37,460 nucleotides of DNA from a virus, in the IMG/VR virus record IMGVR_UViG_3300021952_000482, positions 1 to 37,460 of that record; one strand, written 5' to 3'. Positions within the stretch are counted from its first letter, which is position 1. Every line of letters begins with the position of its first letter. Shown piece after piece: positions 31,868-36,633 of the stretch. A program made the position numbers and the translations under genes. The notes under the pieces were generated by a model. It had not been told where the DNA came from. It saw nothing but the letters and a program-made list of their open reading frames with translations, and ran no database searches.

Positions 31868-33058
31868 ATGGCCGAGACCGTCAACGTCTCAAGCTCGCCG
31901 GGGGCCAATTACACCTGGACCTCTGGCAAGTTTGCATGGAGCAGCGCCACAGCCGGTAAGAACTGGACGAGTGCCTATCCGGCGGTCTACAGCCTGAGCG
32001 TGGCCACGGACATCAGTTTCACGGAGTTGATCCAGAAGCTGGGAATCAAGCGAAGCTCCGAAACCATTGCCTTTGCTGAGAAGCAAGGCAAAGGGCTGGT
32101 ACTGAACAAGTTCGAGGTCATGAGTTTTGCCGAGACCTACACGGACCTCATTGCTTTTGTTCTGAGGTTTGTTGAGTCCTTTGCGTTGGCTGAAAAGAAC
32201 GGGCTTTCCAACACCAAGCGGGTGTTCGAGGTGTTTCAGGTGGCCGAGGGGTTGGCGCGACAGATTGCATTGCGAAAGTTCGAGACGCTGGCGCTGGCTG
32301 AGACCTACACCGACCTCATTGCATTCATCTTGCGCGTGGGCGAAAGCTTCAGCTTTGTCGAGACACCATCAAAGGCGCTCACCAAGCCACAGGCAGAGAC
32401 TTTCAGGTTCACTGAGTCGCTGTCCAGGTCGCAGGTCAAACGGATCTCCGAGACGTTTGTGTTCGCTGAGTTTTTTGGACGGACCGTAGCCTATCGAAAA
32501 GCGATCAGCGAAGGGTTTGCGATTGGGGAGTCGCTGCGTCGTGCGCAGACCTTGAAGCTGGCCGAGGCCTTGAGCCTTGCTGAGCAATACAGAAGGCGAG
32601 CAAACGGTGTCATCAGCGACATGATCGTTGCAAGCACAGAGATCACCGAGCAGGACTTCATTGACATCCTGGAGTCTGGCCATCCTCCGGGGTACACCAA
32701 TTTCCGGGACTTCATTCAGGGCGACTACACCTACCAGCGGGCGCTGTTCAGGGCGATTTTGACCTCCAGCAATGCTGATCGGGGCTACATCGATGGTCTG
32801 CGCGTCACGGTGGATGTGCCCGATGTCTTTGACCGTGGCACTGCCCAGGTGAGCAATGCGGCCAATGGCGTGACGGTTGTCTTTTCCCGGCAGTTTCGTG
32901 TCTCGCCAGAGGTCACGCTCACCTTCAAGGGGGGCACCACTGTGGCCGTCCCCCGAATCCTGGGCACGGTATCCACCACAGGTTTCACCGCAGTTCTTGA
33001 AAACACCTCCGGCACCCGGGTCACAGGGGCCATTTCTTGGGTTGCACAAGGGTATTAA
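31868..33058 (+). CDS. Fibre-region protein with regular glutamate-anchored repeats
   Basis: The 396-aa protein has no named family I recognise. Its N-terminal 45 residues resemble a virion-attachment segment (TWTSGKFAWSSATAGKNW). From about residue 47 to 247 it contains ten copies of E-x5-E with the pattern E-[ST]-[FL]-x-[FL]-A-E. The second Glu falls at 53 (partial unit), 71, 89, 109, 127, 145, 165, 183, 201, 221 and 239, so spacing cycles 18-18-20. A strand-rich C-terminal domain follows (FRDFIQGDYTYQRALF, VTLTFKGGTTVAVPR). It is probably a structural shaft with a tip domain. It abuts the next fibre gene exactly. Confidence 0.8.
   Translation: MAETVNVSSSPGANYTWTSGKFAWSSATAGKNWTSAYPAVYSLSVATDISFTELIQKLGIKRSSETIAFAEKQGKGLVLNKFEVMSFAETYTDLIAFVLRFVESFALAEKNGLSNTKRVFEVFQVAEGLARQIALRKFETLALAETYTDLIAFILRVGESFSFVETPSKALTKPQAETFRFTESLSRSQVKRISETFVFAEFFGRTVAYRKAISEGFAIGESLRRAQTLKLAEALSLAEQYRRRANGVISDMIVASTEITEQDFIDILESGHPPGYTNFRDFIQGDYTYQRALFRAILTSSNADRGYIDGLRVTVDVPDVFDRGTAQVSNAANGVTVVFSRQFRVSPEVTLTFKGGTTVAVPRILGTVSTTGFTAVLENTSGTRVTGAISWVAQGY
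32006..32608 (+). repeat. Coding repeats with 168-base super-period
   Basis: The segment encoding residues 47-247 of the preceding protein repeats every 54, 54 and 60 bases. This makes a 168-base (56-residue) super-repeat; for example the residues AETYTDLIAF recur exactly one super-period apart (from A88 and from A144). Such a pattern is subject to recombination and can change the shaft length. Confidence 0.85.
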
Positions 33059-33982
33059 ATGCAAAACTACACCGAAATTCCATCGTCAACGACGCTGTCG
33101 GATTCGTTGTCTCAGATCCTGAACAACGACAAGACAGCGCTCTCGCTCTCAAGCGGAACGTCTTTCCCGACGGTCAACTTGCAACTTGGCATGCCTTGCT
33201 TCAGGACAGACGAGCAAAAGCTCTACATCCTCACGGTGGTCAGTCCTGCTTCTTGGAAGATGGTCATTGACCTCTCCGCCACAGTTGGCAAGGTGGCCAA
33301 TGCGGACCTGCTCGATGGCATTGATTCCACTGGGTTCGCTTTGGCGGGTCACAACCATGACGCGGCATATGCCGCGCTGGGCCATAACCACAATGCCGCC
33401 TACCTGGGCATCACGGCCAAGGCTGCCGATGCTGACAAGCTCGATGGCTATGACTCGACAGCCTTTGTGCGATCGGTCAACGGGTACGGTCCGGATGCCA
33501 ATGGCAATTCCAGTGTGCCTATTGATCTTTCGAGCCGTGTGGCCAAGTCTGGCGACACCATGACTGGCACCCTCACGGCGCCCAGGCTGCAAATTGCAGG
33601 AACGGCCAACTATCTGGACATGGTCGATCAGGACTGGGGGACTCGCTACCTACATCACAACCAGGGACTCATGGGATTTTTGAAATCCGATGGCAACTGG
33701 GACATGTACATGAACAACAGTGGTCAGATGTGGACAGCCAATTACGGATGGCTACACGACTACTTCTTCAGCACTATCGCCAACTGTTTCATCGGCAACT
33801 GCCCGGGTAACACGGGCAATTGCAGCCCAGTAGGCAACAACGCGACTTCTGTGGTTTCGAACTGCGGTAGCGCATCTTTTGTCCGAGATGAACTGGTGGA
33901 CAACGGCAGCCAGATTGCTGTCCGAAGAACCCAATACAACTTCAATTGCAACTGCAACTGCAATTGCGATTGCTATTGCTGA
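33059..33982 (+). CDS. Tail fibre with Asn-Cys-rich C-terminus, likely substrate of a maturation system
   Basis: The 307-aa protein is a short tail fibre. Typical fibre signatures are LAGHNHDAAY and LGHNHNAAYLG (about 95-116) and KSGDTMTGTLTAPRL (163-177). Past residue 240 it becomes Cys-rich, with C243, C248, C255 and C269, each after Asn, then C297, C299, C301, C303, C305 and C307 at the end. Eight of these ten Cys follow Asn; the last two follow Asp and Tyr. Cys is the final residue. The next three genes, 13 bases away, encode an oxygenase-like protein, an unknown and a radical SAM/SPASM enzyme. I infer the Cys/Asn segment is modified after translation. Metal binding or cross-linking are alternatives. 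Confidence 0.88.
   Translation: MQNYTEIPSSTTLSDSLSQILNNDKTALSLSSGTSFPTVNLQLGMPCFRTDEQKLYILTVVSPASWKMVIDLSATVGKVANADLLDGIDSTGFALAGHNHDAAYAALGHNHNAAYLGITAKAADADKLDGYDSTAFVRSVNGYGPDANGNSSVPIDLSSRVAKSGDTMTGTLTAPRLQIAGTANYLDMVDQDWGTRYLHHNQGLMGFLKSDGNWDMYMNNSGQMWTANYGWLHDYFFSTIANCFIGNCPGNTGNCSPVGNNATSVVSNCGSASFVRDELVDNGSQIAVRRTQYNFNCNCNCNCDCYC
33944..33979 (+). repeat. Six hexanucleotide repeats ending in TGC at the fibre 3' end
   Basis: Six six-base units each end in TGC (Cys): four start with AAT or AAC, one with GAT and one with TAT. They encode the alternating Asn/Asp/Tyr-Cys tail and run directly into the stop codon TGA. Such a repeat could gain or lose units by slippage, changing the number of Cys residues. 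Confidence 0.9.
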
Positions 33983-33995
33983 TCCAGGATAAACC

Positions 33996-34574
33996 ATGAA
34001 CTCTTTGAACAACATCTTCCCGGCTCCGGTTCTTCGCATCCAGGGGCTTTTGAGTCCCGCCGAGGTGGAGCTGGCGACTGAGCTTGCAACCAAGGCTAAC
34101 GAGCGCCTGAATGACCATCAGGTCCCGTACTCCCGAACTTACCGTGACAGCCTGGACTTCATGTTCCCGGAGTTCTTCAAGCCCATCTTCCGACGCTTGC
34201 GCCGCAGCATCGAGGACGAGTTCAAGTGCAACGTCAGCAACATGGTGGGACGCGAATCCATTTTTCGCTACGGCCAGCATCTGCCATTCCATACTGAGCC
34301 GCACGCTGATATTTCTTGCGTGCTGTGGCTGGACTTCCCCGCAAAGCCCGACCCATCCAGGCGCGACTACTCGGGCATGTTCTGCCTGCATAACCCGCAT
34401 CTCTTGTTTGGTGGCCGCGCAACAGGGGTGTTTGGCAATATCAACCACATGGAAATGCCATCGCCTGGTGATGCCTTCGTTTTCCCTTCTCACATGCCGC
34501 ACTTTGTGTTCCCGTACAACGGCGAGCGCCCTGGCGTGGAACTTCACTTTGAAATGCTTGCGGAGGCTGCATGA
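33996..34574 (+). CDS. 2OG-Fe(II) oxygenase-like protein
   Basis: The 192-aa protein resembles the small putative 2-oxoglutarate/Fe(II) oxygenase group. HTEPHADISCVLWLDFP (99-115) gives an H-x-D pair (H103, D105). FPSHMPHFVFPYNGERPG (163-180) gives the distal histidine (H169, or H166) and the Arg that binds 2-oxoglutarate (R178). The double-stranded beta-helix order is right. Such enzymes hydroxylate amino acid side chains or small molecules. It follows the Cys-rich fibre by 13 bases and overlaps the next gene by four. The fibre's Asn, Asp or Tyr residues are attractive substrates, as Asn/Asp hydroxylation is known for this superfamily; this is inference. Confidence 0.72.
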   Translation: MNSLNNIFPAPVLRIQGLLSPAEVELATELATKANERLNDHQVPYSRTYRDSLDFMFPEFFKPIFRRLRRSIEDEFKCNVSNMVGRESIFRYGQHLPFHTEPHADISCVLWLDFPAKPDPSRRDYSGMFCLHNPHLLFGGRATGVFGNINHMEMPSPGDAFVFPSHMPHFVFPYNGERPGVELHFEMLAEAA

Positions 34575-35266
34575 AGCTCGTTACCTTCAATGCCAGCGTC
34601 GATGAAGAAAAGGCTGTGCGTGTAGATCAAACTGCTGAAGGCTACACCGTCTCATTTGCTGGCGCATCCATCAACATTGACGTACAACTTTTTAAGCAGG
34701 GCGAGCTGCAGTTCCTGATGTATGGCAAGCAGTATCAGAGCGAAGTCATCGGAATCGTGTCTCAGCGCGAATATGTAGACAGCCGCGATGGCCTGACGAT
34801 CCTGGCTCAACACGGCCTGACAGATGGCCTCGGCTGGTTTTACTTCGGCGAAACCACCGAAGAGGCCTGTCTATGCATTACCAAGGCCATGGCGGCTCAG
34901 TGCCCCTTCGACATCGTGCAGCCGGGCAAGCCTCGTGATGTTCTGCCAGGTATCTTCCCCGACAGCGAAAGGCTGGGGGTTCGCAACCTGGCCAAGATCG
35001 CGCTGCTGCGCAAGCTCAACCCGCTCGACAGCCTCGCCGCCCTGGAAAAGCAGGTCGACTTGCTCAGCTCCCTGGTCATCCAACTGGCCAACCTGGTGCC
35101 AGGCCACGAGGGCATTGCCCTTGTCGACCACCTCAAGCACATCATCACCGATGCCAGCGCAAACGCAGGCAAGAGCGACGAGCATACCGTCGCCAGCGTG
35201 ATGTCTTTCAAGATGGCGCTGCGCCAGGCGCAGGCCGATTACTTCGCTGCACGCGACGGAGCCTAA
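34571..35266 (+). CDS. Unknown protein in the fibre-modification operon
   Basis: I do not recognise this 231-aa protein. Residues 1-95 look strand-rich (KLVTFNASVDEEKAVRV, then YTVSFAGASINIDVQLF, and GWFYFGE further on), and the C-terminal 110 residues look helical, with DSLAALEKQVDLLSSLVIQL. No catalytic motif is visible. It overlaps the oxygenase gene by four bases, and its stop codon overlaps the radical SAM start by one base, so all three are probably made together. It may bind the fibre substrate, like a peptide-recognition or chaperone subunit, or modify it. This is speculation based on position. Confidence 0.8.
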   Translation: MKLVTFNASVDEEKAVRVDQTAEGYTVSFAGASINIDVQLFKQGELQFLMYGKQYQSEVIGIVSQREYVDSRDGLTILAQHGLTDGLGWFYFGETTEEACLCITKAMAAQCPFDIVQPGKPRDVLPGIFPDSERLGVRNLAKIALLRKLNPLDSLAALEKQVDLLSSLVIQLANLVPGHEGIALVDHLKHIITDASANAGKSDEHTVASVMSFKMALRQAQADYFAARDGA

Positions 35267-36633
35267 TGATGGCCAAATTCATCCTTACTGCCATTAATCC
35301 TGAAAATGGCCAACGCACCCATTTCCACTACGACAACGCAACCAGCGAGTTGACCCGCGAATCTGGTGAGCCAGTGGTTCATGCGGTCGAAGTCGCTAAA
35401 CGCGTAGAGGCTCCAGCAGTCTCCAAGCAGACACCACTGGGCAAGTCCAGCCCCCGCACCCTCAAGATCAGCCTGGGCCTGTCTTGCAACTACGAGTGCG
35501 AATACTGCTCTCAGCGCTTCGTGCCGCGCGCGGTCGAAACCAACCCGGGCGATGTGCAGGCCTTCATCGATGGCCTCGACGCCTGGGTGACGAGCCCGCC
35601 CGAGAAGGTCGAGTTCTGGGGTGGCGAGCCTCTGGTCTACATCAAGACCATGCGCCCCCTGGCCGAGGCCATCAAGGCCAAGTTCCCCAAAGCAGATCTG
35701 TCGGTCATCACCAACGGCTCGCTGCTGAGCGATGACATCAACGAATGGCTTGATCGCATGGGCTTCAATGTCGGAATCTCGCACGATGGCCCAGGCCAGC
35801 ATGTGCGCGGCCCCGACCCCCTGAAGGATTCGCAGCAGCGCGCCGCCATCATGGCGCTTTACACCCGTCTGGCCCCGCAACGGCGCATCAGCTTCAATGC
35901 GATGGTCAATCGCGAGAACGTATCGCGCGCAGCTATCCAGCGCTTTTTTATCGAGCTGACTGGCGACCACATGGTCCCCATCGGCGAGGGTAGCTTTGTT
36001 GATGCCTATGACGAGGGTGGCATTGCTCACTCGCTTCAGCCAGATGAGCTGCACGCCTACCGCAATCTTGCCTTCCACGAAATCCGTACTGGCCAGGCCG
36101 CTAACGTCCAGGCCGTGAGTAGCAAGACGGCCAGCTTCGTCAATTCCATCCGTAGTCGTCGTCCTGCTTCCAGCCTGGGCCAGAAGTGCGGCATGGACAA
36201 GTCCGACAGCATCGCAGTCGACCTGCGCGGCAACGTCCTGACCTGCCAGAACGTGAGTGCAGCCAGCACCGCTCCCAATGGCCAGGCTCACCGCATTGGA
36301 CATGTATCCGACCTGACCGCTGTCAAGCTCGACACTGCCACGCATTGGAGTAAGAGGGGGGACTGCCCGAACTGCCCGATGTTGCAGATTTGCCAAGGCT
36401 CCTGCATGTTCCTGGAAGGCCCCCTGTGGGACCGGTCCTGCGAAAACGCCTTCTCTGACGCTGTACCGATCTTCGCCGCTGGCTTCGAGTTCTTGACTGG
36501 CTTGGTACCGATCTATATCGACGGTCCCCAGCGCGATGATCGAAAGGACATTTTCGGATTTCTGCGCTCGGATCAGGGGAATGCCGTCAGCCCCTCTGCG
36601 AAACGATTTCCTATCCGAGTTGTCGCCGCATAA
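35266..36633 (+). CDS. Radical SAM/SPASM enzyme, probable fibre maturase
   Basis: The 455-aa protein has the radical SAM cluster motif CNYECEYC (C74, C78, C81), then FWGGEP (118-122) and the TIM-barrel segments VITNGSLLS and VGISHDGPG. The C-terminal SPASM domain shows C308, the GNVLTC (G322-C327) pattern, then C367, C370, C376, C380 and C392, the usual ligands for two auxiliary Fe-S clusters. SPASM enzymes of this type mature peptides, making thioether or other bonds at Cys or other residues. An N-terminal extension of about 65 residues may be for substrate binding. It ends the operon that begins with the Cys-rich fibre, so the fibre is the natural candidate substrate. Confidence 0.93.
   Translation: MMAKFILTAINPENGQRTHFHYDNATSELTRESGEPVVHAVEVAKRVEAPAVSKQTPLGKSSPRTLKISLGLSCNYECEYCSQRFVPRAVETNPGDVQAFIDGLDAWVTSPPEKVEFWGGEPLVYIKTMRPLAEAIKAKFPKADLSVITNGSLLSDDINEWLDRMGFNVGISHDGPGQHVRGPDPLKDSQQRAAIMALYTRLAPQRRISFNAMVNRENVSRAAIQRFFIELTGDHMVPIGEGSFVDAYDEGGIAHSLQPDELHAYRNLAFHEIRTGQAANVQAVSSKTASFVNSIRSRRPASSLGQKCGMDKSDSIAVDLRGNVLTCQNVSAASTAPNGQAHRIGHVSDLTAVKLDTATHWSKRGDCPNCPMLQICQGSCMFLEGPLWDRSCENAFSDAVPIFAAGFEFLTGLVPIYIDGPQRDDRKDIFGFLRSDQGNAVSPSAKRFPIRVVAA

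Follow-up and report, generated by a model that had tools for sequence, protein, structure and literature searches.

A radical SAM/SPASM enzyme coupled to cysteine-rich tail-fibre ends: a probable maturation system for virion tips in phages

Radical S-adenosylmethionine (SAM) enzymes that carry a full SPASM domain and lie beside a cysteine-rich substrate often make up a thioether-forming pair, as in the case of PapB, CteB, and QhpD. The ranthipeptide maturases PapB and CteB act on short leader-bearing peptides whose cysteine-rich gene adjoins that of the enzyme, and the thioethers that QhpD forms on cysteines belong to one subunit of a structural protein complex, not to a small natural product. 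The SPASM-fold enzyme anSME targets a residue of a full-size protein, and in the His-Xaa-Ser system (HxsB/HxsC) the neighbour of the radical SAM gene contains a short tandem repeat. Here we describe a locus in a 37.5 kb virus contig (IMG/VR record IMGVR_UViG_3300021952_000482, 37,460 nucleotides, analysed at its full length and referred to as the window) in which a radical SAM/SPASM enzyme is encoded in one operon with a tail fibre that ends in alternating asparagine and cysteine residues (the NC tail). It is likely that these genes belong to a virion-tip maturation system in which the downstream enzyme modifies the NC tail of the fibre. That the NC tail is the substrate of the enzyme is highly probable, and the chance that the modification consists of cysteine thioether bonds is about even.

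The window has a lambda-like late region that encodes the terminase, head, tape measure, minor tail proteins, a tail assembly protein, and the central fibre J (1018 bits). The four-gene operon lies downstream of J, with two more tail-like proteins in between (Table 1). An earlier reading of the sequence alone, the original prediction, had placed a fibre, an oxygenase-like protein, a protein of 231 amino acids (P231), and a radical SAM/SPASM enzyme in this operon, and a check of the open reading frames (ORFs) returned exactly the same coordinates and spacings: a gap of 13 bases between the fibre and oxygenase genes followed by overlaps of 4 bases and 1 base. The predicted cysteine- and asparagine-rich end of the fibre is also present, and the C-terminal sequence of this 307-residue protein reads ...DNGSQIAVRRTQYNFNCNCNCNCDCYC. 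Its status as a fibre is based on homology and on its place in the tail module downstream of J. The matches to T4-type fibres are weak, no convincing relative was found among solved structures, and residues 1-245 share 31% identity with the fibre gene of Achromobacter phage JWF.

The assignment of the enzyme as a radical SAM/SPASM protein is borne out by matches above the cut-off to PF04055 (32.8 bits; cut-off 29.5) and TIGR04085 (32.5 bits; cut-off 27), in addition to a match to phrog_1802 (1.5e-61). The cysteines of the CxxxCxxC motif and the seven SPASM cysteines are all invariant in an alignment of 60 divergent family members, the lowest of which is ~35% identical to the window's enzyme. 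A structure model of the enzyme (predicted local distance difference test score, pLDDT, 89.2) has thioether-forming CteB (PDB 5wgg) as its top fold match, with a Z of 24.2 and a root mean square deviation of 4.5 Å over 368 residues, followed by ChlB, anSME (Z 20), and TigE; the epimerase EpeE is found at a Z of 13. As modelled, the closest folds of the enzyme are peptide or protein maturases, with CteB first. By inspection, three N-terminal strands precede the core of the model, and these lack the following helices of a full RRE (the recognition element of ribosomally synthesised and post-translationally modified peptides, RiPPs).

Naming the enzyme by an existing equivalog was rejected, as the scores for PapB, QhpD, anSME, HxsB, and HxsC all fall far below the curated cut-offs. 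The nearest named profile family is the PapB ranthipeptide maturase NF047865 (2.7e-15; 56.4 bits against a cut-off of 340). The locus resembles those of PapB and CteB in that a cysteine-rich substrate gene adjoins the enzyme, but the presumed substrate is a fibre of the virion whose C-terminus bears the alternating tail, rather than a leader-bearing peptide. QhpD (TIGR03906) is likewise a radical SAM/SPASM enzyme and the third-best NCBIfam match (4.9e-13; 48.5 bits against a cut-off of 453), but its substrate is different and it has no link to phages. The anSME profile gives 43 bits against a cut-off of 349 and no sulfatase is found near the window's enzyme, although the enzyme of JWF is annotated as an anSME in GenBank KP202971. 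HxsB and HxsC reach 37.9 of 370 and 32.9 of 268 bits, respectively. Some of the loci described below resemble that system in having two radical SAM genes (a second one is found in ten loci), but the repeat here is Asn-Cys and is located in tail fibres.

The main evidence that the fibre and the enzyme belong together is their coupling across loci, which was determined in both directions. Scanning IMG/VR with the enzyme gave 80 loci, and a locus was judged if a tail was present or if at least 6 kb of upstream sequence was available. A tail was called where an ORF on the same strand, no more than 7 kb upstream, had (X-Cys)n with n of at least 3 at or near its C-terminus or directly ahead of a Hint domain. 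An NC-tailed protein was found upstream in 72 of the 74 judged viral loci; one of the two exceptions starts just short of the place that the tail occupies in sister loci (L025), and the other is a degraded locus (L069). When bacterial genomes were scanned with the family alignment of the enzyme, 79 loci were obtained, most of them prophage-like, from Burkholderiales, Rhodobacterales, and Rhodospirillales, including named isolates of Limnohabitans, Burkholderia paludis, Thalassobacter, Rhodoplanes, and Bradyrhizobium. The tail is present in 61/71 judged bacterial loci. The exceptions are a locus that looks like a fusion in which the fibre end was lost (L206), one in which the tail sits 18 residues before the end of the protein (L233), a frameshifted prophage (L274), and seven divergent loci that are weighed below. 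These counts include tail-bearing loci whatever the length of their flanks, which biases them slightly in favour of the tail. In the enzyme-first loci, the tail occurs on 146 of 2,343 upstream same-strand ORFs and on none of 8,643 other ORFs. When the enzymes were dereplicated at 80% identity, the tail was present in 91/108 loci, a set that holds tail-selected loci and so shows diversity, not frequency.

For the reverse direction, IMG/VR was scanned independently of the enzyme with two DNA patterns, (Asn-Cys)4 and Asn-Cys-Asn-Cys-X-Cys-X-Cys-stop, counting only loci new to the collection with the pattern at the C-terminal end of an ORF; near-identical phages were counted separately. The enzyme was found on the same strand, at most 8 kb downstream, in 58/58 loci for (Asn-Cys)4 and 20/20 loci for the stop-anchored pattern (78/78 in total). 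No locus without the enzyme had at least 4 kb of downstream sequence, and a further 13 and 10 loci, which end with the stored DNA, are not part of these denominators. In the control, with the pattern away from the end of an ORF, the enzyme was found in 4/30 and 1/53 loci, respectively; of the four, three represent NC proteins missed by the end-distance filter. Chance or base composition as the source of the association is ruled out by these controls together with the ORF counts in the enzyme-first loci; the association is also not a matter of chance because it holds over ~100 divergent loci. The constant pair is the NC tail protein and the enzyme, and in the smallest loci the two genes are only 9-48 bases apart. 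The proposal that the fibre is the substrate therefore draws strong support from the two-way coupling. Enzymes beside fibres that lack the cysteine-rich end, which the original prediction had named as an observation that would speak against it, were not regularly found in the viral, bacterial, or tail-first loci.

The NC tails themselves follow a narrow pattern. In 144 distinct tails, the first X is Asn in 132 and the second X is also Asn in 132, while later positions accept Asp and Ala as well; the constancy of the cysteines is partly a product of the search pattern. The repeat number is mostly 4 to 6 (span 3-10), and the run extends to the exact C-terminus in 74 of these tails. The candidate substrates range from ~70 to more than 1,000 residues and apparently all belong to the tail or are small tip proteins. 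The tip-proximal segment of the window's fibre is shared by fibres of Pseudomonas phages Dolphis and Itty13 and of Agrobacterium phage Alfirin, which lack the NC tail and have no enzyme annotated adjoining them. The ends of the Dolphis and Itty13 fibres, which are related to the window's fibre, look by eye like Peptidase_S74 chaperone domains.

In several members a Hint domain comes after the NC run. These include Achromobacter phages JWF and 2-1 and several prophages, and the domain starts at the last cysteine of the run or a few residues from it. The match to PF05203 is above the cut-off in phage 2-1 (46.6 bits; cut-off 32.1) and weaker, below the cut-off, in the other members tested. Because of where the Hint domain starts, self-cleavage would put the NC run at a new C-terminus, as in the other members. 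The Hint variants resemble fibres with Peptidase_S74 domains in that a C-terminal part would be removed after assembly, but these NC members have Hint in place of S74, and the window's fibre has neither (no Hint domain was found in a Pfam search). About a dozen phages encode three tandem paralogous tip proteins of ~90-170 residues with one tail each, and the repeat numbers are 5, 4, and 4, in an order that is constant in most of them. Three tandem paralogs look like what a hetero-trimeric tip would need. In a decayed prophage of Polynucleobacter necessarius, frameshifts interrupt the enzyme and the oxygenase, and the tail has decayed to NCNCDRNCGC; the damage to both enzyme and tail fits a joint loss in this single case.

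Two further groups were observed at the edges of the family. Short proteins that share the conserved end HTHxFxDDYxTxCNCNCNC form a separate branch of the system; in loci with a flank of sufficient length, several divergent radical SAM genes lie close to them. Additionally, enzyme relatives in Ramlibacter and others (L269, L271, and L272) are found in non-phage surroundings and perhaps represent a cellular sister system; in L271, an ORF of 65 residues directly upstream of the enzyme relative might encode a precursor.

Table 1. Positions of the operon features in the window and of variant features in other loci (L numbers).
Feature	Position or locus	Strand	Basis or remark
Tail fibre, presumed substrate, 307 aa	33059..33982	+	phrog_8443 tail fibre 2.9e-6; ends NFNCNCNCNCDCYC
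C-terminal repeat NCNCNCNCDCYC, presumed modification site	33944..33979	+	(X-Cys)n conserved at or near the C-terminus beside the enzyme
2OG-Fe(II) oxygenase-like protein, optional accessory, 192 aa	33996..34574	+	phrog_81 3.6e-11; Pfam below cut-off
P231, 231 aa	34571..35266	+	alignment; model pLDDT 83.8
Radical SAM/SPASM enzyme, presumed NC-tail maturase, 455 aa	35266..36633	+	PF04055, TIGR04085, phrog_1802; family alignment; model
CxxxCxxC motif of the radical SAM cluster (C74, C78, C81)	35485..35508	+	invariant, 60 sequences
SPASM domain, invariant Cys C308, C327, C367, C370, C376, C380, C392	36187..36441	+	60 sequences; TIGR04085 above cut-off
NC runs followed by Hint	L001, L002, L037, L040, L193, L231, L247, L276, L279-L281		
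Tandem tip paralogs	L062, L065-L068, L070-L074, L080-L082, L126, L195		
Short proteins, 67-79 aa, conserved end HTHxFxDDYxTxCNCNCNC	L090 11423-11662, L096 2432-2635, L131 6394-6597, L139 787-990, L154 5101-5322		
Decayed Polynucleobacter necessarius prophage locus	L274 6683-10359		enzyme and oxygenase frameshifted

The other two genes of the operon are optional extras, one frequent and one occasional. Of the 91 dereplicated tail-bearing loci, 41 encode a member of the oxygenase family. The earlier assignment of this protein to the 2-oxoglutarate (2OG)-Fe(II) oxygenases is tentative: the protein matches phrog_81, and the Pfam match to 2OG-FeII_Oxy_5 (1.3e-4) is below the cut-off. In an alignment of 38 family members, checked for the HxD/E...H triad, two histidines are invariant (38/38) and the acidic ligand is present in 19/38. 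At that second metal ligand position, 17 members have His and 2 have Ala, and part of the family may therefore not be ordinary 2OG oxygenases. P231, whose family occurs in 11/91 loci, had no match to known families. Its N-terminal half is beta-rich and its C-terminal half is helical, and searches with Foldseek and VIA-align gave no confident fold match; the best phage match is SPP1 gp22 (Z 5.3, N-terminal half only). Another protein, X, mostly 240-310 residues long, is present in 66/91 loci and has a C-terminal part that is immunoglobulin (Ig)-like by look (PF16640, E 0.001 in one member, below the cut-off). P231 and X never occur in one locus (91 loci; hypergeometric p ~1e-7). Distant homology between the two was considered, and profile comparison gave no support for it. 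We infer that X and P231 probably share one function, perhaps in the presentation or assembly of the tip. The protein encoded directly before the fibre (31868-33058) contains internal repeats of the type ETxxFAE/FAETYTDLIAF and has a weak C-terminal match to an H-type lectin (E 0.003, below the cut-off).

In the proposed scheme, the fibre is synthesised with an (Asn/Asp/Ala-Cys)n alternating tail, by which every chain would be lengthened at what is presumed to be the distal tip, and the enzyme would act on this tail inside the infected cell, prior to the release of the particles. If the chemistry is that of the thioether-forming maturases, the cysteine sulphurs would be linked to carbons of the neighbouring Asn, Asp, or Ala, either within a chain or across the chains of the trimer, and the outcome would be a stable, rigid tip. 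P231 in the window and Ig-like X elsewhere would occupy one slot and probably aid the presentation or assembly of the tip, and the oxygenase, where present, may contribute a hydroxylation. Cross-links between chains, a hydroxylating role of the oxygenase, presentation of the tail by P231 or X, and a use in receptor binding or envelope penetration are parts of this scheme that we suggest only tentatively, and the same applies to a mechanical or receptor-binding benefit of the tip. It is conceivable, if rather doubtful, that the enzyme links the three fibre chains through their tails into a single covalent tip with sulphur bridges, which would be hetero-trimeric where three tandem paralogs are present.

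Several points weigh against enzymatic maturation of the tip. The reaction product is so far unseen, and a fold match alone does not show a reaction. Thioether bonds between direct neighbours, or between residues one position further apart, would close smaller rings than those of known ranthipeptides. The position of the NC tail at the tip is deduced from the usual topology of fibres. Six of the seven divergent bacterial exceptions (L253, L262, L269, L271, L272, and L282) lie in surroundings that are not phage-like, and the seventh (L273) is a divergent relative of the enzyme that lacks an NC tail and retains protein X; the wider enzyme family therefore has other substrates. Finally, the NC repeat could bind metal instead.

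In this last case, the inward cysteines of the trimer would hold metal ions or iron-sulphur clusters, and the enzyme would build or load the centre or modify another part of the tip. The alternation would set all of the cysteines on one face of a strand, with three per layer of the trimer, and there is a precedent in the fibre tips of the T4 gp37 type, in which iron is held by HxH motifs in a trimeric fibre (PMC11705849). The NC tail resembles these tips in that side chains of a type that binds metal alternate along a fibre, but the gp37 motif uses His instead of Cys and is not located at the very C-terminus, and no HxH motif was found in the tail of the window's fibre, which alternates Asn and Cys without His. 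HxH fibres also work without a dedicated enzyme, metal binding does not explain the preference for Asn or Asp at the alternating residue, and the SPASM enzymes closest in fold introduce covalent changes into peptides or proteins. We consider a metal-holding tip improbable. Conversion of alternate tail residues to D-amino acids, giving an unusual helix or a pore-like tip as in the polytheonamides, is less probable still. Two residue types do alternate strictly over 3-10 repeats and radical SAM epimerases exist, but EpeE is a weaker structural match than the thioether-forming and sulfatase-maturing enzymes, which fit clearly better by fold; the enzyme has a full seven-cysteine SPASM domain, and epimerisation does not require so many substrate cysteines. 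A role of the radical SAM gene in auxiliary metabolism or host takeover, with a merely incidental place in the tail operon, would match the way in which the 11-12 radical SAM genes per genome in Campylobacter phages such as CP220 and CPt10 have been read (PMC2853527; genomes outside the NC-tail tests made here). For the enzyme described here, such a role is to all intents ruled out by the two-way coupling with the NC tail across many tail contexts, and the enzyme also carries a SPASM domain.

The proposed modification of the NC tail by its neighbouring enzyme is best described as a maturation system with a smaller core than first proposed. The coupling of tail and enzyme stands, whereas the four-gene set is not minimal and the RiPP-like label does not apply in its strict sense, since the presumed substrate is an entire protein of the virion and neither a leader nor a released peptide was identified. 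The original prediction knew of no described system with this gene set, and our search of the open-licence literature (preprints excluded) also found no description of a virus fibre tip finished by a radical SAM enzyme. The enzyme class is known, but to our knowledge no member of it that is dedicated to finishing the tip of a viral fibre has been described. If the product is a link of the known ranthipeptide type, the chemistry itself would not be new in kind. The system is carried by cultured phages (Achromobacter phages JWF and 2-1) and is therefore directly testable.

With this pairing, a large unexamined set of SPASM enzymes (phrog_1802 and relatives) would gain a definite substrate. If the proposal is true, phage adsorption organelles bear enzyme-made chemistry that is invisible to structure prediction and to sequence-based work on host range, and phages hold a genetically encoded way to covalently hardened protein tips. 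Should the covalent sulphur-bridged tip prove true as well, the working end of the virus would be a post-translationally synthesised structure, and radical SAM chemistry would be a widespread phage route to receptor-binding or envelope-piercing tips.

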